From assembly GCA_019694215.1 (NCBI GenBank), contig JAIBCK010000001.1, forward strand, positions 1-64,000: 64,000 nucleotides of DNA, written 5' to 3'. This document shows positions 9,602 through 45,635 of the stretch, piece after piece. How positions within the stretch are numbered: position 1 is the stretch's first letter; the number at the start of each line of letters is the position of its first letter. The DNA comes from Thermoflexales bacterium (GTDB taxonomy: Bacteria > Chloroflexota > Anaerolineae > J036 > Brachytrichaceae). Both the position numbers and the translations under genes were made by a program. Under the pieces are notes generated by a model that was not told the origin of the DNA, searched no databases, and worked only from the letters and a program-made list of their open reading frames with translations.

Positions 9602-10996
9602 ATGACATCACTCAGGCGGGCCATCGAGGCCTATCACTCCCTCCTGACGAACGACGCCGCGCTGGCCCAGGCGACGGCGGCGCAGCTCGACGACCAGCAG
9701 CGGCGACGCGGCCTGTTCTTTGGCGAGCGCGCCATCGCCAGTGTCCTGCGACCGCGCTTTCTGACGACGTCGCAGTACCACTACCTGCAACGTTCCATCG
9801 GCGCGATCCTGCCTGCCTTTGCAAAGGCGGAGGCCGCGGCGCTGCGCGATCCGAACGTGCTTGAGCAGTTCATGCTTTCGGACTGGGAGAAGAGCCTGCT
9901 GGCCTTCGAGCCCGGCTTTTCATCCAGCCCCAACGCGCGGATGGACTGCTTCTTCGTCACCGACGAGGTCGAGACCGGCACCCTGGCGATGACCGAGTAC
10001 AACGCAGAGACCCCCGCCGCGGTTGGCTACACCGATGTGCTCAGCGAGGTCTTCCTCAGCCTGCCAGCGATGGGCGAGCTGCAACGCGACTACGAGCTGC
10101 GCCCCCTGCCCGGCCGCCACCACATGCTGCACGCCCTGCGCGACGCCTTCGCCCGTTCCGGGGTTGGCACACCGGGCGAGGCCATGCGCGTGGTCATCGC
10201 GGACTGGAAGGAAGTGCCGACTTACAGCGAATTCCGCATCTTCCGCGACTACTTCCGAAGCATGGGGGTGGATTGCGTGATCGGCGATCCGCGTCAGATG
10301 CGCTTCGATGGCGAGCGACTCATGGTGGTCGATGAGGACGGCCGGGATTTCCATGCCAACGTCATCTACAAACGCGTGCTTCTGACCGAGCTGGCGACGC
10401 GCAGCCCGGAGAAGCTGGAGCATCCGATCTTCAAGGCGGTCAACGCGCGCAAGGCGGTGCTGTCCAACCCGTATCGCTGCAAGATCCTGCACCAGAAGGC
10501 CAGCCTGGCGGTGCTGAGCGATGAGCGCAACCGACACCTGTTCAGCGCCGCGGAGCAGCGCGCGATCCGGGCCTTCATTCCGTGGACGCGGGAGTTGAGC
10601 GAGCGTTACACCGAATACGAGGGCGCGCGCGTCGACCTGGTGCGCTTCCTGCGCGACAACAAGGACATCCTCGTGCTCAAGCCAAATGATGAGTACGGCG
10701 GCAAGGGCATCGTGCTGGGTTGGACGGTGGACCAGACCGAGTGGGAGCGCAAGATCGCGGAGTATCTCCGCGAAAAGGCAATTGTGCAACGCAAGGTCAT
10801 TATCCCCAGTGAGCCGTATCCCAGCTTCGTTGACGGGCGGGTCGAGGTCTACGATCGCATGCTGGATACCGACCCGTATATCTGGGACAGCCGCTGGACG
10901 AGCGGATGTCTGACGCGGTTGTCGACCGCGGACCTTCTGAATGTCACGGCGGGGGGCGGCTCGACAGTGCCCTCCTTCATCGTCGAAGCGCGCTAG
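9602..10996 (+). CDS. Circularly permuted ATP-grasp protein
   Basis: 464 residues, resembling the COG2308-type circularly permuted ATP-grasp family. In this order the metal-binding acidic cluster comes early (around 115-140, with TEYNAETPA) and the nucleotide-binding Lys and Gly-rich loop come late (Lys360 in LVLKPNDEYGGKG). The ATG at 9602 is favoured over an upstream extension that would overlap the previous gene. No Shine-Dalgarno is obvious. In many bacteria this family is found beside GCS2-type ligases, and is thought to form amide bonds; product unknown. Confidence 0.82.
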   Translation: MTSLRRAIEAYHSLLTNDAALAQATAAQLDDQQRRRGLFFGERAIASVLRPRFLTTSQYHYLQRSIGAILPAFAKAEAAALRDPNVLEQFMLSDWEKSLLAFEPGFSSSPNARMDCFFVTDEVETGTLAMTEYNAETPAAVGYTDVLSEVFLSLPAMGELQRDYELRPLPGRHHMLHALRDAFARSGVGTPGEAMRVVIADWKEVPTYSEFRIFRDYFRSMGVDCVIGDPRQMRFDGERLMVVDEDGRDFHANVIYKRVLLTELATRSPEKLEHPIFKAVNARKAVLSNPYRCKILHQKASLAVLSDERNRHLFSAAEQRAIRAFIPWTRELSERYTEYEGARVDLVRFLRDNKDILVLKPNDEYGGKGIVLGWTVDQTEWERKIAEYLREKAIVQRKVIIPSEPYPSFVDGRVEVYDRMLDTDPYIWDSRWTSGCLTRLSTADLLNVTAGGGSTVPSFIVEAR

Positions 10997-33009: not shown

Positions 33010-34668
33010 ATGCGGCGATCCGCGAAGCTGATGCTTGCCCTCGTGGTGGCCGTGGCGGGCTGCGCAACGCCCTCCCCGGTGCCCAGCCCCACGCCCCTGC
33101 CCCCGCCGGCCGCCACGCCGACGCGCAGCGCGCCTGTGGCAACGGCAACCGCCCCCGTGCCGACGCCCACGCCGCTGCCTCCACGGGCGTGGCTCGATCC
33201 GCGCCTTCCCCCGACCCTGCAGGCCACCCTGTCCGAGCGCGTGCGGGCCGCCGCACTCACCCCAACCGCAAACACCCAGGACGCCGACGCGCTGCGGCTG
33301 ACCATCGCCACGACCCTGACCGCCTCGATCGTCGCCACGGAGGTCTTCGCGCTGGCCGCGCCCTTCCTCACGGCGATCGACGGGTTGAGCGCGGGCGAGG
33401 CGCGCGACATGTGGCTGGGGCGCTCCCCCACCCGCACGCTGCTGCTCGACACGGACGTCCTGGCCGCCCTCACGCCAACCCTCGGTTCACCGGGCGCAGC
33501 GCCCAGGGTGCGCCTCACGGAGCGCGCTCAACTCCTCACGGCGACGCTGGCTGCAGGCGCGAACGCGTTTGCACTTCTTCCGTTTGACATGCTGGATGTG
33601 CGCTGGCGGCTGATGACGGTGGGGACGACCAACCTGTTCGAGCGCAGCGCCGACCTGACCGCATACCCCTTTGTGCTGCGCGTCGTCGCAAGCGGGCCGG
33701 CCGCGGGACGGCTCGGCGCGCCGATCAGCAACCGCGACCCCGCGCGGATGGCGGTGGTGGCGATGACCGGTGTGACAGCGCTGGTGCGGGGGACGGCGGT
33801 GCAGATGGTGGCACACGGTGAGACCTGGCCGGGGGAGAAGATCCGGTCCTGGCTGCGCGACGCCGACATCGCACACATCAGCAACGAGGTGTCCTTCAAC
33901 GAGGCCTGTCCCGCGCCGAACTGGTATGAGGGCACGGTGTTCTGCTCGCAGCCCGCCCGCCTGGCGCTGCTCAAGGACGTCGGCACCGACGTGATCGAGC
34001 TCACCGGCAACCACCTGTGGGACTACGGCTGGCGTGCGCTCTCGACGACGCTCACGACCTACGAATCACTGGGCTGGCGGACGTTCGGGGGCGGCCGAAC
34101 GGTCACGGAATCCCTCAAGCCGCTCACGATGACGGTCAACGGCAATCGCATCGCGTTTGTCGGCTGCAACTATTTTGGGGCGAACTGGGCGACCGACGTG
34201 CTGCCGGGCTCGGCGCGCTGCGGGAGCAAGAGCCCGTATCAGTTTGATCTGATCACGCCGACGATCCGCAGCCTGAGCGCACAAGGCTATCTCGTCATTG
34301 CGACGGTGCAGTACGCCGAGGACTACCAGTACGCGCCGACGCCGCAGCAGGTCCGCGACTTCGGCCTGCTGCGCGACGCCGGCGCGATCGTCGTCAATGG
34401 CAGCCAGGGCCACCACGTGCAGGGCTTCGATGTCTCACGGCGCGGCTTCATCCATTACGGCGTCGGCAATCTCTTTTTTGGCGATCAGGAGGGGGCCGGC
34501 ACGCATCAGACCTTCGTCGACCGGCACGTCTTCATGGACGGCCGGTATCTCGGCGTCGATCTGCGCGCCGCCTTCATCGAGAACGCCGCGCAGCCCGTGC
34601 CGATGACACCGGCCGCCAAACAAGCCCTGCTCACCCTGCTCTTCCGCGTGAGCGGGTTCAGCCCGTAA
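33010..34668 (+). CDS. CapA-family lipoprotein (poly-gamma-glutamate synthesis type)
   Basis: 552 residues. A lipoprotein signal with lipobox VAGC (near residue 16-20) is followed by a long Pro/Thr linker to about 60. The second half is the CapA metallophosphatase-like domain: NEVSFNEACP, ELTGNHLWDYG, VATVQYAEDYQ and GSQGHHVQG, with HYGVGNLFFGDQ near the end. CapA proteins take part in gamma-polyglutamate or related surface-polymer formation. The region at 60-250 resembles no domain I recognise. The 3-prime end overlaps the convergent ABC gene by 11 nt. Confidence 0.86.
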   Translation: MRRSAKLMLALVVAVAGCATPSPVPSPTPLPPPAATPTRSAPVATATAPVPTPTPLPPRAWLDPRLPPTLQATLSERVRAAALTPTANTQDADALRLTIATTLTASIVATEVFALAAPFLTAIDGLSAGEARDMWLGRSPTRTLLLDTDVLAALTPTLGSPGAAPRVRLTERAQLLTATLAAGANAFALLPFDMLDVRWRLMTVGTTNLFERSADLTAYPFVLRVVASGPAAGRLGAPISNRDPARMAVVAMTGVTALVRGTAVQMVAHGETWPGEKIRSWLRDADIAHISNEVSFNEACPAPNWYEGTVFCSQPARLALLKDVGTDVIELTGNHLWDYGWRALSTTLTTYESLGWRTFGGGRTVTESLKPLTMTVNGNRIAFVGCNYFGANWATDVLPGSARCGSKSPYQFDLITPTIRSLSAQGYLVIATVQYAEDYQYAPTPQQVRDFGLLRDAGAIVVNGSQGHHVQGFDVSRRGFIHYGVGNLFFGDQEGAGTHQTFVDRHVFMDGRYLGVDLRAAFIENAAQPVPMTPAAKQALLTLLFRVSGFSP

Positions 34669-36514
34669 CCGCGGGCGCGCTGCCGGCCGCCCCGCCGCCG
34701 ATGATCTCCTCGACGCCGCGCTGGCCCTGCTCGTGCGCGTGCAACAGCCGGTAGTACAGCCCCTGCTGCGCGATCAGGCTGTCATGGTTGCCCTGCTCCG
34801 CGATCCGACCGTCGCGCATGACCAGGATGACGTCGGCGTTGCGGATGGTGCTCAAGCGGTGGGCGATGATGAACGCCGTGCGCCCCTTCAGCAGGGTCTT
34901 TAGCGCCGCCTGGATCAGGCGCTCGGTCTGCGTATCAACCGACGACGTCGCCTCGTCCAGGATCAGGATGCGCGGATCGGCCAGCAGCGCCCGCGCAAAC
35001 GAGATGAGCTGGCGCTGCCCGAGCGACAGGCGCCCGCCGCGCTCCTCAACTTCATAGTTGTAACCCTCGGCCAGCGTCGCGACGTATTCATCCAGCCGCA
35101 CGGCGGTGGCCGCGGCCTTGACCTCCTCGTCGCTGGCGTCCAGACGCCCGTAGCGGATGTTGTCGCCGATGCTGCCCGCGAAGATGAACGGATCCTGCAG
35201 CACGAGCGAGATCTGGCTGCGCACCGATTCGAGACCGACCTCGCGCAGGTCATGGCCATCGATGGTGACGCGCCCCTCGGTCGGATCGTAGAAACGCATG
35301 ACCAGGTTGATGAGCGAGGTCTTTCCGGCGCCGGTCGGCCCGACGATGGCCACGGTCTGCCCCGGCTTGACATCGAGGTCGATCCCATCCAGCGCCTTGC
35401 GCTGACCCTGGTCATACGCAAAACGCACGCCCTCAAACCGCACCGCGCCGCTGATGGGTGAGATGCGGCGCGCCCCGGCACGGTCGGCCACCTCCGGCTC
35501 GGTGTCGAGAAACTCAAAGATGCGCTCGGCCGAGGCCATCGCCGCAAGCACCTGTGAGTAGACGCGGCTGAGCGCGCTGACCGGTCCCCAGAAGCGCCAC
35601 AGGTAGTTGACGAAGGCGAAGATCACGCCAAGCGTCAGCGTGCCCGCGGCGACCTCGTGGCCGCCGACGAAGACCAGCAGCGCCGTGCCGGACATTCCGA
35701 CGACTTCCACGATGGGCCAGATCAGGTTGTCGAGCCGGATGGCCCGCACGTTGGCATTGCGATTCCACAGGTTGATGCGGCCGAAGCGCGTGATGTTGTG
35801 CTCCTCGCGCGCGAAGGCCTGCGTCACCCGGATGCCGTTGATGCTCTCGTTCAAGTTGGCGTTCATGTTGGACTGGCTCTTGCGCACGTTGGTCCACGCC
35901 GACTCGATGCGTGTGCGCAGCCGTCCGAAGACGAAGTAGAACGAGGGCGTGATGAGATACGCCACCAGCGCCAGCTTCCAGTTGATGACGACGAGGATGA
36001 CGACGATGCCGACCAACGACAGCCCCTCGGCGATGATCGTCGCCAGACCACCATTGATCAGCTCGTTCATCGCGCCGACATCGCTCGTGACGCGGCTCAT
36101 GATCTTGCCCACCGGCCGGCTGTCGTAGAAGCGCAGCGACAGCTTCTGGATGTGAACAAAGAGCTGGCTGCGCATGTCATACAGCACGGCCTGGCCGATC
36201 TGGCTGATGCGGAACATGCGCAGATACTGTGCCGCCCACGCCAGAAGGCGGAACGTCACCAGCACCCCGACGAGCGTCAGGATCAGACCGAGGTCGCGGT
36301 TCGGCACGCCGCGGTCGATGATCTGCCCGATGATGTACGGCTCCAACAGCGTCGCCAGTGTGCCGACGAAGATGAAGGCGACGACGATGATGAGCGAGCG
36401 CGCGTAGGGCCGCAAATAGCCCATCAGCCGCTTGAAATAGGCGAGGTTGAACGGTCGCTCCTGCGCCTCCTCGTTCAACTCCTCCTCGAATTCTTCGATC
36501 ACAAGTGAGGTCAT
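34658..36514 (-). CDS. ABC exporter half-transporter with LSLGQ signature
   Basis: 618 residues: an acidic N-terminal extension, six transmembrane helices (about 40-330) and a nucleotide-binding domain. Walker A is GPTGAGKT (392-399), Walker B Glu521 (ILILDEATSSVD) and switch His552 (IIAHRLSTI) are canonical, but the signature is LSLGQ (496-500) instead of LSGGQ. This complements the half-transporter at 43170, whose switch His is replaced, so the two may form a BmrCD-like heterodimer. It is the last gene of the six-gene operon and overlaps the acetyltransferase gene by 4 nt. Confidence 0.92.
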   Translation of the reverse strand: MTSLVIEEFEEELNEEAQERPFNLAYFKRLMGYLRPYARSLIIVVAFIFVGTLATLLEPYIIGQIIDRGVPNRDLGLILTLVGVLVTFRLLAWAAQYLRMFRISQIGQAVLYDMRSQLFVHIQKLSLRFYDSRPVGKIMSRVTSDVGAMNELINGGLATIIAEGLSLVGIVVILVVINWKLALVAYLITPSFYFVFGRLRTRIESAWTNVRKSQSNMNANLNESINGIRVTQAFAREEHNITRFGRINLWNRNANVRAIRLDNLIWPIVEVVGMSGTALLVFVGGHEVAAGTLTLGVIFAFVNYLWRFWGPVSALSRVYSQVLAAMASAERIFEFLDTEPEVADRAGARRISPISGAVRFEGVRFAYDQGQRKALDGIDLDVKPGQTVAIVGPTGAGKTSLINLVMRFYDPTEGRVTIDGHDLREVGLESVRSQISLVLQDPFIFAGSIGDNIRYGRLDASDEEVKAAATAVRLDEYVATLAEGYNYEVEERGGRLSLGQRQLISFARALLADPRILILDEATSSVDTQTERLIQAALKTLLKGRTAFIIAHRLSTIRNADVILVMRDGRIAEQGNHDSLIAQQGLYYRLLHAHEQGQRGVEEIIGGGAAGSAPAVTG

Positions 36515-37548
36515 TGAGTCGACTCCTTGGGGGTGTCGTACAACGGCCGTCGGTAGACGACCGTGGTCGAGTGTTCGGTATAGCCGCAGTCGAGATAGAC
36601 GGACAAGGCACCCGTCGCGTTCTCGGTATCGACGTGCAAGGCGGCCTCGGTCATCCCGAGGGCCTGGAACATCTTGAGGCTTTCGACGATCAATGCCCGC
36701 GCCACGCCGCGCCGGCGCTGGTCGCTGCGCGTGCTGATGTCCTCGGTGTAGCCACGGGTGCGGCCGCAGGCCAGGTTCTCGGACTCGTCGATAAAGTTCA
36801 TGACCTGGCCGGCGATGCGGCCCTCGCGGTCAAACGCCACCTTGAACAAGGCCGGAAAGATGTCAGGATCATTCACGCGGCGCAGATAGTCGTCCTCGGT
36901 CGGTGGCGCGAAGCCCCAGTGGTCACGGAACGCCTCGGTATCGAAGTCAAAGCACTGCCGGAACTGGCTGCGGGTCACGGGACGCACAACGAGATCCTCC
37001 GGCAACCTGAAGTCCGGGTAGTTGCCGTCCAGCGGCCGCGTCATCAGGAAGATCCAGCGACAGGCCGTGTAGCCGTGGGCTTCGAGCGCCTCCCGGCGTG
37101 CGGTGTTGCTCTTGAGGCAGAAGGCATCGAGCAAGGTCGCTGTCGCTCCCGTCGCATGGGGGCTTTCGCGGTCCCAGACCTGCGTCAGCCGTTGCGCGCC
37201 GCGCAGCAACCAGGCCTCGATGCCTCGTCCGCGCCAGGCCGGCGAAACCATGATGTACACGCCGAAGACGCGCTCGCCCACCACGGTGTCTCGAAGGTTG
37301 AGCCGAAGCCAGGCGACGATGACGCCCTCGACCGTGATGACGAAGAGATGCCTCGCCGGATCGAAGCCAAACGGGTGCAGGATATTCGCGCGCTGCTGTT
37401 CGACCGTTGTGCGATGGTCTCCGCCATCCGCGACGGCGGCGGCGTTGCTGATCTCCACCATCGTCTCCAGGTCCTTTGCAGGGTCGGCGATACGAATAGC
37501 GAGCCCCGCGATTGCGGGGCGGTCGGTGTCAAAGAATTGGATGGTCAT
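36511..37548 (-). CDS. Tandem GNAT acetyltransferase (mycothiol synthase-like layout)
   Basis: 345 residues with two GNAT domains. The first has a GxGIE-type acetyl-CoA loop (SPAWRGRGIEAWLL, about 104-117). The second has QRRRGVARALIVESLKMF near 285 and the typical DTENATGALSVYLDCGY end. Such tandem proteins acetylate small molecules, including antibiotics or thiols; the acceptor is unknown. It sits inside an operon of drug-exporter-like genes, overlapping the next gene by 4 nt and 1 nt behind the previous one, so a detoxification role is a reasonable inference. Confidence 0.82.
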   Translation of the reverse strand: MTIQFFDTDRPAIAGLAIRIADPAKDLETMVEISNAAAVADGGDHRTTVEQQRANILHPFGFDPARHLFVITVEGVIVAWLRLNLRDTVVGERVFGVYIMVSPAWRGRGIEAWLLRGAQRLTQVWDRESPHATGATATLLDAFCLKSNTARREALEAHGYTACRWIFLMTRPLDGNYPDFRLPEDLVVRPVTRSQFRQCFDFDTEAFRDHWGFAPPTEDDYLRRVNDPDIFPALFKVAFDREGRIAGQVMNFIDESENLACGRTRGYTEDISTRSDQRRRGVARALIVESLKMFQALGMTEAALHVDTENATGALSVYLDCGYTEHSTTVVYRRPLYDTPKESTQ

Positions 37549-37549
37549 G

Positions 37550-39349
37550 TCACTCCTCGCCCGCATCGCGGGCATTCCAGATCTGGCGCATCTCCTCGCA
37601 GCGCGTCAGCAGTTCATCGAGCGTTCCCACATCGTCGAGCGTGCCATCCTTTAGGACCAGGATGCGGTCCGCGCGCTTCAGGGCGGCCCGGCGATGGCTG
37701 ATCGCCAGGGCAGTGTGCGAGCCGACCTGCCCGGACCCGCGCAGGGCATCCCAGCGTTCCCACAACCGGTGCTCGGTCACGACATCGAGCGCGCTGGACA
37801 GGTCATCGAGCACCAGCAGTTCCGCACCCTGCGCATAGGCGCGGGCTGCGGCCGCACGTTGGGCCTGCCCGCCCGACAGGCGCACGCCGCGCGTGCCCAC
37901 CTGTGTCTCAGTACCGTGCTCGAAGGATTCGACATCCTCTTCGAGGACGGCGAGCCAGAGCGCCTCGCGGATGCGCTCTTCAGGTGGGCGCTGGCGGGCG
38001 TCGCTGCTGCCGAGCAGGATGTTGTTGGCCAGGGTGTCGCTGAACAGCCGCGGCACCTGCGGGAGGTAGGCGCTGCGCGGCGGCACGAAGAACGCGGCGG
38101 GATCGGCGATGCGCTCGCCGTTCCAGCGCAGCTCGCCGGATTGGACCGGCAGCAGGCCAAGCAGCGCGCGGACGAGCGTCGTCTTGCCGGCGCCAATGCG
38201 ACCGGTCACCACGGTCAGCGTGTCGCGCGCGAGGGCAAAGTCGATTTTTTCGACCCCGCGGCCCGTCGAGGGATGCAGGCAGGTCAGGCCGCGCACTTCC
38301 AGCGTCTCGAGCCGGTCCCGCGGCGGGGCGATCACGGCCGGCTCCGGTCCGCGCAAGTACAACGGTCGATGCTGCGCAATCGCGACGGGGTCGAGATCGG
38401 GCAGCAGGCCGGCCATACGCTCCACCGCCACCCTGGCCTGGCGCAGCGTGGACACGATGCGCCCGACGAAGACGGTGAAGAACGAGATCGTGGCGAGATA
38501 GTTGACAAACAGCGCGAAGTCGCCGACGGTGAAGGGCTTGGCCAGCCCGGGCTGCATGGCGCTGGCCGCCACGAGCAGGATGAAGCCGGTGCCAAGGCTG
38601 GTGGCGCCATTCCCGATCAGCTCCAACAGCTGCGCGAAGACGCGGTCCTTGATCGCCGCCCCCTTGCGCACTTCGCTGAGCGCCTTGAAGCGCGCGATGA
38701 CGCGCTGCTCCGCGCCACCCACCTGAATGGCCTGGGCCGATTCGAACATCTCGTTCAGGCTGTCCGCGACGGCGCTGTCGGCATCCCGCAGCGCATAACG
38801 GTATTTCTGTACCCTGTGCGCCGCCAGCTGGGCGACCACGGCCACCGCCAGCAGCGGCAGGAAGACGAGCACGGCCATCTCCGCGTTGATTGAGAACAGC
38901 GTGAGCAACGAGAGCGCGCCGAACGCCAGGATGCCGGTCAGGTCGCAGAACCAGCTCAGCAGGTCCTCGATCTGCTTGGCATCGTCGCGCATGACGTTGA
39001 AGACATCGCCGACCGCGCCGGGCAGCGCCAGCGCGCCAGGGCGCTCCATCAGCCTCGCGAAGACGTTCGTGCGCAGCAGCGACACGGTCATGAAGCGATG
39101 CGGCATGTCGGTGAGAAAGCCCATCGCCCGCAGCCCGGTCTGGCCAACCGCGAACGCCACGACCAGCGCGAGGATGCCCTCCGGCGTCAGACCGACCGGC
39201 GCATCGCCGGTGAGTGAATTGAAGAAGGCGCGGTAGAGAAAGCCGGGCACGAGCGGCGAGAGATGAACCAGGATCCAGCTGAGCTGGTCGCCGAGATACA
39301 GCAGGGGCTGGTAGCGGATCAGGCTCCAGATCACGCGCAACGTTTTCAT
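37550..39349 (-). CDS. ABC exporter half-transporter, degenerate Walker B
   Basis: 599 residues: six-helix membrane domain and nucleotide-binding domain. Walker A GRIGAGKT (383-390) and signature LSGGQ (491-495) are normal, but Walker B reads LLVLDDLSS, with Asp516 in place of the catalytic Glu; the switch His552 is kept. This is the degenerate-subunit pattern of heterodimeric exporters. Its immediate upstream neighbour (39346), overlapping by 4 nt, has the complementary non-canonical signature, so the two are very likely partners. Confidence 0.92.
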   Translation of the reverse strand: MKTLRVIWSLIRYQPLLYLGDQLSWILVHLSPLVPGFLYRAFFNSLTGDAPVGLTPEGILALVVAFAVGQTGLRAMGFLTDMPHRFMTVSLLRTNVFARLMERPGALALPGAVGDVFNVMRDDAKQIEDLLSWFCDLTGILAFGALSLLTLFSINAEMAVLVFLPLLAVAVVAQLAAHRVQKYRYALRDADSAVADSLNEMFESAQAIQVGGAEQRVIARFKALSEVRKGAAIKDRVFAQLLELIGNGATSLGTGFILLVAASAMQPGLAKPFTVGDFALFVNYLATISFFTVFVGRIVSTLRQARVAVERMAGLLPDLDPVAIAQHRPLYLRGPEPAVIAPPRDRLETLEVRGLTCLHPSTGRGVEKIDFALARDTLTVVTGRIGAGKTTLVRALLGLLPVQSGELRWNGERIADPAAFFVPPRSAYLPQVPRLFSDTLANNILLGSSDARQRPPEERIREALWLAVLEEDVESFEHGTETQVGTRGVRLSGGQAQRAAAARAYAQGAELLVLDDLSSALDVVTEHRLWERWDALRGSGQVGSHTALAISHRRAALKRADRILVLKDGTLDDVGTLDELLTRCEEMRQIWNARDAGEE

Positions 39350-41118
39350 GCCAGCACCTCCTCCAGCCCGGTGCGGAGCAGCTCCGCGAAGCGCGAGCTG
39401 GCATCTCCCGCCAACGCATCGCGCGGGCCGAACTCGACCACGCGACCCTCATCGAGGATCAGGATGTAGTCGGCGCGCTCGACCGTGGCCAGGCGGTGGG
39501 CGATGACGATGCCCGTCCGCCCCGCCAGCAGCCGATCCACCGCGTGCTCGATGTGCGCCTCGGTGGCGGGGTCGAGCCGCGAGGACGCCTCGTCGAGCAC
39601 GACCACCGACGGATCGCGCAGGAAGATGCGGCCAAAGGCCAGCAGCTGAGATTCGCCCGCGCTGAGCCCCGCCGCGGCGGTCTTGAGCGGCGTGTCCAGC
39701 CCGCGCTCGAGACCCTCCAACCAGGGTCCCAACCCCAGCGCGTCGATCTCGGCACGCACGCGTGCGTCCGGCAGTCCCGGATCAAAGAAGGTCAGGTTGT
39801 CTCGCACACTGGCATGGAAGATCTGGACTTCCTGTGTCACGAGGCCGACGCGTTGTCGAACCCGGGTCAGGTCGAGCGCGCGCAGATCCTGCGCGGCGGC
39901 CAGGCCATCCGGGCTGAGCGAGATGGCACCCTGCTGCGGGTCGTACATCCGCAACAGCAGCTTGGCCAACGTTGATTTGCCAGCACCGGTCCGGCCCAGC
40001 ACCCCGAGCACCTTGCCCGCCGGGAGGCGGAAGCTGACTTCCCGCAGGACGGGTTCGTCCGGGTCATAGTGAAAGCTCACCCGATCAAACACCACCGCGA
40101 GCGGGCCGGCCGCCGACGCAGGGGATGCGGCAGTAGCGGCCGGCGCAAGCGCGCTCTGGATTGCAAACAGTTTCTCGATGCGGATGATCGAGGCGCTGGC
40201 GCGTTGCAGTTCGTCGATCTGAAAGCGGATCTGCTCGATCGGTGCGCGGATGGTCTCGATGTAGGTGTAGATCAGGTAGACCGTCCCGAGCGTCAGCACA
40301 CCCTCACGCCACAGGGCCGAGCCCAGCAGCAGTGAGACCGCCGAGCCGATCGCGAACACCAGCACGGTGATCGACCAGGTGAGCATGCTCATCATCCCGG
40401 CCTTGATCTGATGCGGCATCCATTCCCGCAGGAGGGCATGGAACTGGCGCATGGTGTACGGCAGCGCACCCAGCCCGCGGATGTCCTCGATACCCCCCAG
40501 CCGCTCGCTGACAAAGCCGGCGAACTGCGCGGCGCGGGCGCGCACCCGCAGCCAGTACGGCACGGCCAGCGCGCGCAGCCGGATCAACCCCCACAGCGCA
40601 GCGGCCGCAAAGAGCGTCAGGGCGATGCCGACCCGCCAGTCCTCGCGAAACAGCGCCAGCACAACGGCCAGAAGCAAGAGAAGGTTGCCGATCACCTTGA
40701 TGGCCAGCTGCGAGAAGAAACTCGCGAGCGCCGTCACATCGCCGTCGATGCGCTCGACCAGCTCGCCGGGCGTGCGGGCGTTGTGAAAGCTCATGTCTGC
40801 CGTCAGGCAGTGCAGTGCGAGGTCGGCGCGCAGGGCGTTGGTGGCCGTCCAGCCAACGCTCTCGCCCAGCCAGGTCGAAAGCAGCGTGGCCGCCTGGCGC
40901 GACAGCATCAGGGCGATGAAGCCCAGGGCCAGCCCAACCAGGCTCGCGACGGGCGCGCCGGCCAGGGTGTGGTCGATGAAGGCGCGCACCACCTGGGGCG
41001 CGGCGACCTCCAGCCCGATGCCGATCAGGATCGCAAGCGCCAGCGCGATGACGCGCCCGCGCTGAGGCTGCAGATAGCGTTTCAGCAGCGCAAAGTAACT
41101 TGAAAGCGGGATGTTCAT
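39346..41118 (-). CDS. ABC exporter half-transporter with LSAGE signature
   Basis: 590 residues: six-helix membrane domain (about 20-310) and nucleotide-binding domain. Walker A GRTGAGKS (375-382), Walker B Glu510 (VVVLDEASSRLD) and His541 (IAHRLATV) are intact, while the signature is LSAGE (485-489). In a heterodimer with the 37550 product it would supply the active Walker residues and the weak signature. The gene overlaps both neighbours by 4 nt. Confidence 0.92.
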   Translation of the reverse strand: MNIPLSSYFALLKRYLQPQRGRVIALALAILIGIGLEVAAPQVVRAFIDHTLAGAPVASLVGLALGFIALMLSRQAATLLSTWLGESVGWTATNALRADLALHCLTADMSFHNARTPGELVERIDGDVTALASFFSQLAIKVIGNLLLLLAVVLALFREDWRVGIALTLFAAAALWGLIRLRALAVPYWLRVRARAAQFAGFVSERLGGIEDIRGLGALPYTMRQFHALLREWMPHQIKAGMMSMLTWSITVLVFAIGSAVSLLLGSALWREGVLTLGTVYLIYTYIETIRAPIEQIRFQIDELQRASASIIRIEKLFAIQSALAPAATAASPASAAGPLAVVFDRVSFHYDPDEPVLREVSFRLPAGKVLGVLGRTGAGKSTLAKLLLRMYDPQQGAISLSPDGLAAAQDLRALDLTRVRQRVGLVTQEVQIFHASVRDNLTFFDPGLPDARVRAEIDALGLGPWLEGLERGLDTPLKTAAAGLSAGESQLLAFGRIFLRDPSVVVLDEASSRLDPATEAHIEHAVDRLLAGRTGIVIAHRLATVERADYILILDEGRVVEFGPRDALAGDASSRFAELLRTGLEEVLA

Positions 41119-43160
41119 GCTGCCGCTGCCTCCCAGTCAGCCAGCAGGGCATCGAGGGCGCGTTGCGCCTCGGCATAGTCCTTGGACAGCGCCATTGCGT
41201 TGTGTGGTTCGCCGGCCATGCGCTCGGCCAGCCTGCGCAACGCGGCCTCGCCGGCGGCGATGCGATCCTCGAGCTCAGACAGCCGGGTGGCGCGCGCCTT
41301 CACGGCGTTGTTGGAGGGCCGCCTCTGCACCGACGGCGTCGCAGCGGCGGGGGCCGGCCGCGCAGCCGCGGCACGGGCGGCGGCCTGCGCACGGGCGGCC
41401 TGGCGACGGTTGCGCGCGCCGAGGTACTCGTCGTAGTGTCCGTTGAAGACGTACAGGTGCCCGTCCTCGATGCTCCAGATCTGCTCGGCCAGGCGCCGGA
41501 TGAGATAACGGTCGTGTGATACCAGCAGGACCGTGCCGTCATAGGCTTCGAGCGCCTCCTGTAGCACTTCCTGCGCGCCGATGTCGAGGTGGTTGGTGGG
41601 CTCGTCGAGGACGAGGAGGTTGGCACCATCCAGCGCGAGCAGGGCCAGCGCCAGGCGCGCGCGCTCACCCCCGCTCAGCCCGCTCACGGGCTTGAAGACA
41701 TCCTCGCTGGTGAACAGGTATTTCGAGAGCAGGTAGCGGCCCTGCCCCTCATCCATGCGCCGGCCATCAGCGCGCGCGCGGGCGAGCGTCTGTTCGAGCA
41801 CACTGAGGGCCGGATCGAGCGATTCGTGGGCCTGCGCGAAGTAGCCCACCTTCAGGCTTGCCCCGGTGGCGAGCGTCCCGGACAACGGTTTGATTTCATC
41901 CAGGAGCGTGCGCAGGAAGGTGGTCTTGCCCGAGCCGTTCGGCCCGATCAGCGCCGCCCGCTCGCGGAAGCGCAGCTCGAAGTCATCGGCATCAAAGAGC
42001 GGCGCGCCGGGATAGCCAACCGTCAGGGCCTGCGCGCGCACAACGCTCACACCGCTGCGACGTTCGGCGCGCAGGCTGAGTGTCATCCGCGCCGGAGGCT
42101 GCGGCGGACGCAGACGGGCCAGGCGCCGCTCGGCCTCGTCGAGCCCCCACGGGCGTGTGCTGCCTTCGAGGCGTTCGCTCAGGTCGAGCCATTGCTCATT
42201 GAGCAGCGCCAGCGCCCCCAGCTGCTCGATGACGAGCACGTCACGGGTGAGGCGCTTGAGCTTGCCCTTGGCCCAGGTGACGGGCTTGTCGTTGCCGGCC
42301 TTGACGGCATCGAGGTCGATCTTGATGAGGCGTAGCTCGTTCTCCAGGCGCGCCTTCTCCTGATTGAAGACGAAGACCTGGCGCTGCAGGCGCTCCTCAC
42401 GCTGGCCGAGATACGCGCTGTAGTCGCCGCGGTATTCCTCGATCCGGTTGGGTGCCATTTCCCAGATCCGGTTGACGACGCGGTCGAGGAAGAAGCGGTC
42501 GTGGCTGACCACGACCAGCGCGCCAGGCCACTCGGCCAACGTGCCCTCAAGCCACTCCAGCGAGGCGATGTCGAGGTGGTTGGTTGGTTCGTCGAGGATG
42601 AGCAGGCCGGGGCGTTCGAGCAGCAGGCGCGCGAGCAGGGCGCGAGTCTTCTGCCCGCCGCTAAGCTGGCGCGCCGGGAGCGACCAGAGCGTCTCGTCGA
42701 AGCCAAGGCCTTCGAGCGTGTTCTTGATGCGACGCTCGTAGTCGTAGCCGCCCTGAGCGAGAAAGTCATCGTGCAACGGGCCATATGCCTCGATGGCGTG
42801 GGCGGCCGTTTCCGCGTCGCTGGAGGCCATGTCGGCCTCGAAGGCGCGCAGGCGGCGCTCCTGCTCACGCAGGCCGGCGAACAACGTCATCATCTCATCC
42901 CACACGCTGGCGTCACGGTCGGCGAAAGCGTCGATGGCCTCCTGGCGCAGGTAGCCCACCCGCAGCCCACGGGCGAGGCTGAGCTCCCCCCCGGCCGGCT
43001 TCTCAACGCCGGCGAGAATGCGGATGAGCGAGGTCTTGCCCACGCCATTCGGCCCGACCAGCCCGATGCGGGCACCCTCGGGGACGGCGAGGCTGATCCC
43101 GGCGAAGACATCGGTCGGGCCAAAACTCTGGCTGAGGTTTACGGCGGTCAGCAGCGGCAT
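41115..43160 (-). CDS. ABC-F family ATPase, possible ribosome-protection factor
   Basis: 681 residues, no membrane helices. Two nucleotide-binding domains: Walker A GPNGVGKT (36-43) with LSGGQ (166-170) and GPNGSGKT (about 406-413) with LSGGE (495-499). An interdomain linker of about 110 residues (245-358) carries an insertion around NDKPVTWAKGK, and a coiled-coil C-terminal extension of about 100 residues recalls Uup. ABC-F proteins bind the ribosomal E site; long-linker members can dislodge antibiotics. Its place among drug-type exporters behind an attenuator-like leader favours a resistance role, but a housekeeping Uup/EttA-like role is not excluded. Confidence 0.9.
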   Translation of the reverse strand: MPLLTAVNLSQSFGPTDVFAGISLAVPEGARIGLVGPNGVGKTSLIRILAGVEKPAGGELSLARGLRVGYLRQEAIDAFADRDASVWDEMMTLFAGLREQERRLRAFEADMASSDAETAAHAIEAYGPLHDDFLAQGGYDYERRIKNTLEGLGFDETLWSLPARQLSGGQKTRALLARLLLERPGLLILDEPTNHLDIASLEWLEGTLAEWPGALVVVSHDRFFLDRVVNRIWEMAPNRIEEYRGDYSAYLGQREERLQRQVFVFNQEKARLENELRLIKIDLDAVKAGNDKPVTWAKGKLKRLTRDVLVIEQLGALALLNEQWLDLSERLEGSTRPWGLDEAERRLARLRPPQPPARMTLSLRAERRSGVSVVRAQALTVGYPGAPLFDADDFELRFRERAALIGPNGSGKTTFLRTLLDEIKPLSGTLATGASLKVGYFAQAHESLDPALSVLEQTLARARADGRRMDEGQGRYLLSKYLFTSEDVFKPVSGLSGGERARLALALLALDGANLLVLDEPTNHLDIGAQEVLQEALEAYDGTVLLVSHDRYLIRRLAEQIWSIEDGHLYVFNGHYDEYLGARNRRQAARAQAAARAAAARPAPAAATPSVQRRPSNNAVKARATRLSELEDRIAAGEAALRRLAERMAGEPHNAMALSKDYAEAQRALDALLADWEAAAA

Positions 43161-43169
43161 GAAACACCT

Positions 43170-44945
43170 TTACGCAACGGGCACCGCGTCCATGTCCACG
43201 GTCTCGGCGTGGGCCTGGTCGCGGAACTGCAAGTCAAACAACGTACGATATTCACCGTCCAGCGCATACAGCTCGGCGTGCGTGCCCTCCTCGGCCACGC
43301 GCCCGTCCCGCAGCACGATGATGCGATCGGCCGACATGATCGTGCTCAGGCGCTGGGCGACGACGATGGCGGTGCGCCCGCGCAGTACATCGGCCATGGC
43401 GTGCTGGATGCGCTGCTCGGTCGCCGTGTCCACGGCCGAGGTGGCCTCATCAAGAATGAGCAGGCGCGGGTCCATCAGCACCGCCCGTGAGAGGGCGACG
43501 CGCTGTTTCTGCCCGCCGCTCAACCCCACGCCGCGCTCGCCAACCTTGGTGTCATAGCCCTTGGGAAGGGACGGGACGAACTCATCCACCTGCGCGACCT
43601 GGGCAGCAGCCAGCACGCGCGCGTCGTCGGCCTCGGGCGCGCCAAAGCGGATGTTGTCGCGCAGCGTCGCCGAGAAGAGAAAGCTCTCCTGCGGGACGAT
43701 GCCGATCTGCCGCCGCAGCGCGGCCAGCCCGAGCTCACGCACATCGACGCCATCGACCTTGACCGAGCCGCCGGTCACGTCGAAGAAGCGCGGGACGAGG
43801 TTGATGACCGACGACTTCCCACTCCCGGTGCCACCCAGAATCGCGACGGTCTCGCCGGGCCTGACGGAGAACGTCAACCCTTTCAGCACGGCGCGGTCGG
43901 GGTCGTCGGGGAAGGCAAAGGTGACCTGCTCGAAGTCCACGCGCGCCGGCCCGGACGTCGCCAGCACCCGCGGCCGCGCCGCCTCGCGCACTGTCTCCTC
44001 GGCATCGAGGATCTGAAAGACGCGCGGCGTCGCCGCGGCGGCCTGGCGCGTGAGGTTGGTCAACCAGCCCAGAATGCGCACCGGCCAGATCAGCCCCCAG
44101 ATGTACCAGTTGAACATGAAGAACGTGCCGACGGAGAGCGTCCCCTCCATCAGCCGCAGCGAGCCGGCCAGGATCAGGATGATGAAGATCAACCCGGATA
44201 CGAAGTCCATCCACGGGAAGTACTCGGCCTCGATGCGCGCGCGGTGCACGTTCTTGCTGCGATTTAGCCGATTCTGCAGGTCGAAGCGCGAGCTGGCGTA
44301 GTCCTCACGCGCAAACGCCTTGACCACGCGCACGCCGGCCACGTTCTCCTGCAGCGTTGTGGTGAGCTTGCCCATCTGCTCGCGGACATCCTCCCAGGCC
44401 GGGTCGATGCGCTTGCGGAAGCGCACCACGCCATACAGGATGAGCGGCATGGGCAGCATCACGGTCAGGGCGAGTTGGGCATCGAGCACAAAAAGGATGA
44501 CGATGGTCGAGAGCAGCGCCAGGCCCTCGGTGAGAAGGGTCGAGAGCCCAAACGTGACCAGCTGCTCGACCGAGTCCAGGTCGCTCAACATGCGCGACAT
44601 GATCTGACCGGTCGGCATCGTCGTGTAGTACGAATACGGCAGCCGCTGCAGCTTGCGATAGAGCGCGTCGCGCAGCTCGCGCACCACGTCGGTGCCCAGC
44701 GTTCCCTGCATGACCTGGCGGATGTAGTTGATGACACTGAAGCAGATGGCCGCGCCGATCAGAAGCGCGCAGAACAGCGCCACAGTGGACAGGTCGCCCT
44801 TTGCCACGCCGTCATCGATGGCCACGCCCATGAGGCGCGGCTCCATCTGCGCAAAGAAAAGCGCCAGCAGCGAGAGTGCACCGACCAGCGCGAAGCGCCG
44901 GCGATGAGGCTTGATGAACGGAAACAATCGTTTGATGAATGCCAT
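43170..44945 (-). CDS. ABC exporter half-transporter, switch His replaced by Gln
   Basis: 591 residues, first gene of the six-gene operon. Six membrane helices (about 15-300) precede a nucleotide-binding domain with Walker A GGTGSGKS (371-378), signature LSGGQ (475-479) and Walker B Glu500. The H-loop reads VVAQRLSTI, so the switch His is Gln531. This marks it as the degenerate half of a heterodimer; the LSLGQ subunit at 34658 is its best partner. The start codon lies 8 nt after an intrinsic terminator and has no Shine-Dalgarno in the gap, so its expression must depend on the leader. Confidence 0.92.
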   Translation of the reverse strand: MAFIKRLFPFIKPHRRRFALVGALSLLALFFAQMEPRLMGVAIDDGVAKGDLSTVALFCALLIGAAICFSVINYIRQVMQGTLGTDVVRELRDALYRKLQRLPYSYYTTMPTGQIMSRMLSDLDSVEQLVTFGLSTLLTEGLALLSTIVILFVLDAQLALTVMLPMPLILYGVVRFRKRIDPAWEDVREQMGKLTTTLQENVAGVRVVKAFAREDYASSRFDLQNRLNRSKNVHRARIEAEYFPWMDFVSGLIFIILILAGSLRLMEGTLSVGTFFMFNWYIWGLIWPVRILGWLTNLTRQAAAATPRVFQILDAEETVREAARPRVLATSGPARVDFEQVTFAFPDDPDRAVLKGLTFSVRPGETVAILGGTGSGKSSVINLVPRFFDVTGGSVKVDGVDVRELGLAALRRQIGIVPQESFLFSATLRDNIRFGAPEADDARVLAAAQVAQVDEFVPSLPKGYDTKVGERGVGLSGGQKQRVALSRAVLMDPRLLILDEATSAVDTATEQRIQHAMADVLRGRTAIVVAQRLSTIMSADRIIVLRDGRVAEEGTHAELYALDGEYRTLFDLQFRDQAHAETVDMDAVPVA

Positions 44946-44953
44946 GTTGAGAC

Positions 44954-44990
44954 AAAAAAAGACCGTGAGCGTTATTGGCGCTCACGGTCT
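44954..44990 (-). terminator. Intrinsic terminator in the leader of the ABC/ABC-F operon (attenuator)
   Basis: On the minus strand a 12-bp perfect stem (AGACCGTGAGCG / CGCTCACGGTCT) with the 7-nt loop CCAATAA is followed by seven T. The T-tract ends 8 nt before the ATG at 44945. Such placement, after a leader with an upstream ORF, fits a conditional attenuator. The alternative is a plain terminator for the upstream glgC-epimerase unit. Confidence 0.85.
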
Positions 44991-45024
44991 CGAAAGGCGG
45001 TGTGTTTCGGGTTTGAACCCGGGC

Positions 45025-45159
45025 TCAGCGGCGAGTCTCCTTGTGTGTCGGACGACATCCCGCCAGGCTCCCAGTCGAGATCGGAGCACGGTGCGCAGCG
45101 AAGCGAAGGCGCATGCCTCCCTTGGCAGCGACTACGTTCGGAATCATGCTCAGCATCAT
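45025..45159 (-). CDS. Putative 44-residue leader peptide (upstream ORF)
   Basis: A short ORF with an AGAGAGG Shine-Dalgarno 9 nt before its ATG. It begins MMLSMIPNVVAAKGG, continues basic (MRLRFAAHRAP) and ends CRPTHKETRR. The stop codon lies 34 nt upstream of the terminator stem. There is no signal peptide or known domain. Position and spacing suggest a regulatory leader peptide whose translation state decides termination, as BmrB does for bmrCD. It contains ACCGTG (in the Ala-His-Arg-Ala codons), identical to part of the terminator 5-prime arm and so able to pair with CACGGT in the 3-prime arm. Real translation is unproven. Confidence 0.5.
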   Translation of the reverse strand: MMLSMIPNVVAAKGGMRLRFAAHRAPISTGSLAGCRPTHKETRR

Positions 45160-45216
45160 GTGTTTGGACCTCTCTGTGGATATGTCTCGCGGGTGCGTCT
45201 AACCTTGGACGGGCGA

Positions 45217-45225
45217 ACTATATCA
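45217..45225 (-). promoter_or_regulatory. Extended -10 promoter of the ABC/ABC-F operon leader
   Basis: TGATATAGT on the minus strand is an extended -10 element just after the epimerase stop codon. Transcription would begin near 45210, giving a leader of about 265 nt before the first structural gene. No good -35 is seen, as is common with extended -10 promoters. Confidence 0.5.
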
Positions 45226-45230
45226 CGACC

Positions 45231-45635
45231 TTACGGCTGCGGCGGGCGCTGATACAACTCGATCAGCACGCCACCCGTCGAGCGCGGATGCACGAAGGCA
45301 TAGAGCGTGCCCTCCGGCCGGCGCACAGGTTCGGGGTTGATCATCTCGCCGCCTGCCCGCTGGATGCGCGCCATCGCCGCCTGAATGTCACCGACTTCCA
45401 GGCAGACGTGATGCATGCCCGGGCCATGCTTGGCCAGCCACTTCACGATGCCAGTGTCCTGGCGGGTTGGCTGAAGGAGCTCGATCTCGCTCTCGCCCAC
45501 CGGCAGAAAGGCGATGCGGACGCCCTCGCGCTCGACGTCTTCGACGCGCGCACAGGTCAGGCCCAGGCCGTCGCGGTAGAAGGCCAGCGCCGCATCGAGA
45601 TCGGGCACGGCGATGGCCAGGTGATCGAGTCGCAT
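45231..45635 (-). CDS. mce: Methylmalonyl-CoA epimerase (VOC family)
   Basis: 134 residues. Two VOC beta-alpha-beta repeats with metal-binding residues: His5 (RLDHLAIAV), a central Glu in ESEIELLQP, His in MHHVCLEV and Glu in VLIELYQ. It interconverts the 2R and 2S forms of methylmalonyl-CoA in propionate metabolism. It shares one base with the glgC stop. No mutase genes are nearby. A general glyoxalase-like role is the alternative. Confidence 0.88.
   Translation of the reverse strand: MRLDHLAIAVPDLDAALAFYRDGLGLTCARVEDVEREGVRIAFLPVGESEIELLQPTRQDTGIVKWLAKHGPGMHHVCLEVGDIQAAMARIQRAGGEMINPEPVRRPEGTLYAFVHPRSTGGVLIELYQRPPQP

Follow-up and report, generated by a model that had tools for sequence, protein, structure and literature searches.

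Attenuators of the trp and his type are built from mutually exclusive hairpins, denoted 1:2, 2:3 and 3:4. Among resistance ABC genes, the upstream-ORF attenuators that we found experimentally studied in the literature come from Gram-positive model bacteria and pathogens. In Bacillus subtilis, stalling on the upstream ORF of vmlR prevents formation of an anti-antiterminator (PMC9226507), while translation of bmrB is needed for lincomycin-inducible readthrough in bmrBCD (PMC4191407). In the literature searched, outside which most subscription papers lie, we found no description of such leaders or of attenuation in Chloroflexi or Anaerolineae.

We propose that the leader preceding an ABC/ABC-F operon in the window, i.e. 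the whole 64,000-nt stretch analysed here, is quite probably a cis-acting, ribosome-mediated transcription attenuator that would turn the operon on when initiation or early elongation is slow. Conservation across the class and pairings specific to each lineage support the original prediction of an attenuating ORF and terminator ahead of this operon.

The host genome comprises 3.4 Mb in 184 contigs. The leader is found on the minus strand between the methylmalonyl-CoA epimerase gene (45231-45635) and ABC1, and is followed by six minus-strand genes, overlapping or closely spaced (Table 1). The ABC-F protein scores 417.7 bits against the NCBIfam ribosomal-protection-like ABC-F model, whose cut-off is 380; ABC2 is the probable partner half-transporter of ABC1.

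Table 1. Leader elements and operon genes, with coordinates in the window.
Feature	Coordinates	Strand	Description
Leader	45225-44954	minus	-10, Shine-Dalgarno site, ORF and terminator, ahead of ABC1
Extended -10 TGATATAGT	45225-45217	minus	Leader promoter element, read from the sequence
Element 1 UCCACAGAGAGGUC	45167..45180	minus	5' strand of the predicted anti-antiterminator, containing the Shine-Dalgarno site; MFE of the full leader
Shine-Dalgarno GAGAGG of leader ORF	45174-45169	minus	Within element 1; base-paired to the ORF in the MFE of the full leader
Leader ORF MMLSMIPNVVAAKGGMRLRFAAHRAPISTGSLAGCRPTHKETRR	45159 (ATG) to 45025 (TGA)	minus	44 codons
Element 2a GUGCUCCGAUCUCGA	45075..45089	minus	Predicted antiterminator strand within the ORF; seen in the MFE when the leader is cut ahead of the 3' arm
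Element 2b GAUCUCGACUGGGA	45069..45082	minus	3' strand of the predicted anti-antiterminator, partner of 45180-45167; MFE of the full leader
Element 3 UCGAGACCGUGAGCGC	44978..44993	minus	5' arm of the terminator with its flank; partner of element 2a
Intrinsic terminator	44991-44954	minus	Stem 44991-44959, 13-nt arms, 7-nt loop; U7 at 44960-44954
ABC1, ABC exporter half-transporter	43170..44945	minus	591 aa; Pfam PF00664 and PF00005; orthologues found
ABC-F	41115..43160	minus	NCBIfam ribosomal-protection-like ABC-F, above cut-off
ABC exporter half-transporter	39346..41118	minus	Domain match
ABC exporter half-transporter	37550..39349	minus	Domain match
GNAT acetyltransferase	36511..37575	minus	Two Acetyltransf_1 stretches matched; conserved operon member
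ABC2	34658..36514	minus	ABC half-transporter

ABC-F belongs to the same operon in G005, G010, G018 and G021: all six operon genes are present in G005, the order ABC1, ABC-F, GNAT, ABC2 is kept in G018 and G021, and G010 shows ABC1, ABC-F and GNAT before its contig ends. The order is ABC1, GNAT, ABC2 in G019 and G023, and in L066 ABC2 directly follows ABC1; in G025, G026 and G027 no ABC2 was found in the roughly 7 kb that follow ABC1. Among the relatives examined, G005 alone shares with the window the two extra exporter genes between ABC-F and GNAT (37550-41118). On reading, two further ABC-F loci in the host genome of the window show no obvious leader of this kind.

All parts initially listed for the leader are present in the window: an extended -10, a Shine-Dalgarno site with a 44-codon ORF, and a terminator with seven T that ends 8 nt before the ATG of ABC1 (44945), a gap in which no Shine-Dalgarno site was found. 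In GC-rich DNA an ORF of 44 codons is unremarkable by itself; it becomes significant because of its conservation in relatives. The -10 sequence GTGATATA is matched letter for letter in the same-genus relative G005, where a TTGACA -35 box is present upstream of it, and TTGACA/TATAAT-like boxes stand 5' of the leader ORF in most relatives. Upstream of the -10 in the window we found no good -35 box, and the promoter scan returned no sigma-70-type promoter there. The terminator is the best match in a 9-kb scan, with 13 pairs; the runner-up on the same strand has 9.

In G005 the start of ABC1 is likewise close to the U-tract, at 16 nt, and the leader promoter is preceded by a long palindrome, GGTGTGGCCCGCTCCGGCATACGCCGGAGCGGGCCACACC (L051, about 10180-10220), which is probably a terminator or repeat. 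In the window, a hairpin with CCCGGGTTCAAACCCG (45003-45020), situated between ORF stop and terminator, resembles a tRNA T-arm; ARAGORN and Rfam find no tRNA at this site and the hairpin is absent from G005, so we rejected it as a tRNA.

The proposed mechanism involves four segments: 1, the Shine-Dalgarno/start region of the ORF; 2, inside the ORF; 3 and 4, the 5' and 3' arms of the terminator. Pairing 1:2 would constitute the anti-antiterminator, hiding the Shine-Dalgarno site as well, 2:3 the antiterminator and 3:4 the terminator. With fast translation, ribosomes would run past segment 2 to the stop codon, 20-35 nt ahead of the hairpin. With segment 2 then occupied or re-paired with segment 1, the terminator would form and the operon would be off. 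With ribosomes held at the start or at early codons, segment 1 would be covered and segment 2 free: 2:3 could form before segment 4 is made, letting RNA polymerase enter ABC1 and the later genes. We infer that in vivo the leader is transcribed and translated, and that termination and readthrough actually take place.

The leader anatomy (promoter, Shine-Dalgarno site, ORF of 26-47 codons, terminator) recurs in 24 of the 32 ABC1 orthologues whose upstream DNA was read. These 24 leaders comprise the window, 11 Thermoflexales relatives from four genera, 11 loci of f23, f26 and f35, and L066, an Anaerolineae MAG; the Thermoflexales carriers belong to one family, and f23, f26 and f35 are further families of the class Anaerolineae. 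The canonical leader is missing at the other eight orthologues, namely G013, G015, G020 and five f36 loci. Leader sequences and peptides differ between lineages, and divergence in length and sequence is too great for a single alignment. Rfam, at gathering and relaxed thresholds, holds no family that matches the leader, and blastn of plasmids with the leader gave no match; a scan of genome contigs with P0001 returned only two close relatives, L065 and L066. No additional class with the leader emerged from phylum-wide sampling.

The placement of the ORF is what persists. In every one of the 24 leaders, 20-35 nt separate its stop from the hairpin (sd 4.2). This test is not fully blind, the ORF starts having been picked by eye from Shine-Dalgarno sites; L079 has an alternative ORF frame. 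The distance from ORF start to hairpin ranges from 106 to 168 nt, and in the other two frames a stop falls within 18-36 nt of the hairpin in just 2 of 20 and 3 of 24 cases.

Each leader contains an ORF segment able to pair either with the Shine-Dalgarno/start region or with the 5' arm of the terminator. The pairings are clearest in G007 and G021, and several can be recognized by eye: in G021, CTGCGCCT of the ORF pairs with AGGCGCAG of the Shine-Dalgarno site or with AGGCGCAG of the terminator; in L076, GGCG(T)GGGCCACA pairs with TGTGGCCCCGCC; in L081, GGAGATGC of the Shine-Dalgarno site pairs with GCATCTCC of the ORF, for which the L080 counterpart, GGAAATG/CATTTCC, represents a compensatory change.

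For the window, we obtained the alternative folds that the original prediction had called for. The minimum free energy structure (MFE) of the full leader (-90.4 kcal/mol, z -3.3) combines 1:2 with 3:4, revealing in addition an anti-antiterminator that sequesters the Shine-Dalgarno site of the ORF. When the leader is cut before the 3' arm, the MFE contains instead the 2:3 antiterminator, a predicted helix of 14 bp with one bulge and one mismatch between elements 2a and 3, the fold energy being ordinary (z -0.75). Part of element 2a, GUGCUCCGAUCUC, is identical in G005, and element 2b is supported also by the cognate pairing of Shine-Dalgarno site and ORF across lineages. The antiterminator first suggested, between ACCGTG of the ORF and CACGGT of the terminator 3' arm, does not appear: these letters exist, but their pairing is not in the predicted folds, its place being taken by the 14-bp helix between the ORF and the terminator 5' arm.

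Taken one by one, duplex energies are mostly near those of shuffles, and the Fisher values of 5e-5 (2:3) and 1e-7 (1:2) combine related leaders that are not independent. The window pairings alone fall within dinucleotide shuffles (p=0.19 for 2:3, p=0.25 for 1:2). Because these per-leader tests are individually weak, we used a swapped-partner permutation and masked-ribosome folding. In the former, with partners exchanged among nine lineage groups, each lineage's own partners beat swapped ones: only 30 of 362880 permutations were as good for 2:3, and 7 of 362880 for 1:2. The window's genus contributes little to this result (-0.9 and +1.0 kcal); the case is carried by the relatives.

In the masked-ribosome folding, the ribosome footprint was blocked and partition functions were computed for all leaders as far as the terminator loop. 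The mean antiterminator probability over the 24 leaders is 0.75 with the ribosome at the start, 0.56 with the leader free and 0.38 with the ribosome at the stop; 20 of the 24 have a higher value at the start than at the stop. This start-minus-stop switch, 0.366, lies above all 60 sets with shuffled ORFs (mean 0.165, maximum 0.294), and shuffling the ORF interiors lowers the ribosome-at-start value to 0.53. For the window leader alone, the simulated values are 0.82 free, 0.84 at the start and 0.59 at the stop, a modest switch, since even the free leader favours the antiterminator as long as the 3' arm has yet to be made. Once complete, the terminator prevails at equilibrium in nearly all states, hence the switching must be kinetic. 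Altogether, the predictions contain three features of a ribosome-mediated attenuator: a terminator upstream of the structural gene, an ORF of conserved placement and a ribosome-sensitive, mutually exclusive antiterminator.

Would the ribosome respond to the nascent peptide rather than to initiation and early elongation? As in erm leaders, drug-dependent arrest at one particular codon could precede the RNA switch, and some peptide stretches do recur within a lineage: one genus has SGDAVFALPYCAYRPSFVMR, f23 has RAVWxxDPGGGMR, and f35 has VRLRDMxWH and FAGSxD...W. In several ORF pairs pN is lower than pS (pS 0.33 and pN 0.06 for G019/G021; 0.45 and 0.20 for L080/L081; 0.54 and 0.39 for window/G005), values that in some lineages indicate an ORF under purifying selection. 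A lack of conservation in relatives, which would have counted against the original prediction, does not apply: ORF and terminator keep their placement in all 24 leaders and selection is seen in some lineages, although between the window and G005 peptide and codons are weakly conserved outside the pairing motif. Against a peptide sensor, we found no peptide common to all lineages. Apart from MIPN and AHRAPIS, the peptides of the window and G005 have little in common, and AHRAPIS falls on the RNA motif; the TGCTCC motif is read in a different frame in the window than in G007 and G008, which argues that RNA, not peptide, is conserved there. We therefore regard a peptide sensor as possible yet doubtful.

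The leaders of f23 and related loci (L074, L066, L075, L076) have a common peptide end near RAVWxxDPGGGMR. The ORFs of L074 and L066 contain an internal GGAGG just before an in-frame ATG-Arg-stop; the Met-Arg-stop ending is also seen in the Thermoflexales genus of G018, G019, G021 and G023. In L076, a tRNA-like stretch ending in GGGTTCGAATCCCATCACCCGCTCC lies about 55-130 nt upstream of the leader ORF, after a likely promoter; given this position between promoter and ORF, tRNA and leader may share one transcript.

Translational control, in which the hairpin would hide the start of ABC1 until a ribosome on the ORF exposes it, draws on the close spacing in the window, where the stem ends 13 nt from an ATG that has no Shine-Dalgarno site, and on f36 orthologues, which have short upstream ORFs and no clear U-tract hairpin. 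However, in every leader from beyond the window's genus, 44-179 nt separate the U-tract from the start of ABC1, and stem and U-tract are retained in 24 of 24, making this mode unlikely for the leaders described here. In f36 itself, four of the five loci (L084, L086, L087, L088) have upstream ORFs of 7-10 codons, mostly with sites resembling a Shine-Dalgarno sequence; we found no clear U-tract hairpin at these four, and their ORFs possibly serve a different, perhaps translational, control.

The hairpin could also be the constitutive end of the glgC-epimerase transcript, with a separate ABC1 promoter downstream, an objection that the original prediction had raised against itself. The epimerase gene, on the same strand, does end 240 nt ahead of the hairpin, and the window leader is without a good -35 box. 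Still, glgC and the epimerase gene are upstream in none of the 14 relatives examined, the leader being kept with ABC1 in 11 of them, and the gene upstream of the G005 leader (URO-D) is divergent: the hairpin thus belongs with ABC1. With the 8 nt between U-tract and ATG too short for a promoter, and promoter-like boxes before the leader ORF in most relatives, we consider this objection very improbable. Least credible of all is amino-acid attenuation by codon starvation, which would share the 1:2, 2:3, 3:4 logic of the trp leader, but the 24 peptides have no common run of one codon or amino acid and the operon encodes exporters and an ABC-F protein, with no biosynthesis genes.

Returning to the ribosome-mediated attenuator, we infer that its natural signal is probably ribosome-targeting antibiotics, by analogy with vmlR and bmrBCD and from the nature of the operon, with its ribosomal-protection-type ABC-F and multidrug-type exporters. 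We see an even chance that the leaders form a class-wide Anaerolineae attenuator family, in which the Shine-Dalgarno/start region, acting as anti-antiterminator, would read initiation and early elongation directly and so respond to many ribosome inhibitors with no fixed peptide, some lineages having added conserved peptide segments. If the proposed attenuator works as described, ribosome-sensing control of operons for drug pumps and ribosome protection would extend well beyond clinical lineages: the same logic would have been separately built in largely uncultured, environmental Chloroflexota, with partners changing together between lineages, and 24 natural variants are available for testing the switch.

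Compared with attenuators of the trp and his type, segment 1 is here the Shine-Dalgarno/start region, and there is no regulatory codon run. The vmlR leader, which controls an ABC-F gene, is similarly composed of an upstream ORF, anti-antiterminator, antiterminator and terminator (PMC9226507). However, its ORF is a tripeptide, MIN, placed in a bulge of the first stem-loop with a single-stranded Shine-Dalgarno site, whereas here the ORF has 26-47 codons and its Shine-Dalgarno site lies within the anti-antiterminator; the first gene here is an ABC exporter, and the vmlR host belongs to a different phylum. In bmrBCD, a leader ORF and terminator likewise precede an ABC exporter pair (PMC4191407). 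The bmrB terminator is inside the coding sequence, a property that the present leaders do not share, theirs being past the stop in every case; contrary to bmrBCD, the operon also has ABC-F and GNAT genes. The likeness to vmlR and bmrBCD is one of working logic, and we claim no homology. The logic is thus known and the lineage separate; the leader itself is apparently undescribed, and what appears to distinguish it is a Shine-Dalgarno site built into the anti-antiterminator.
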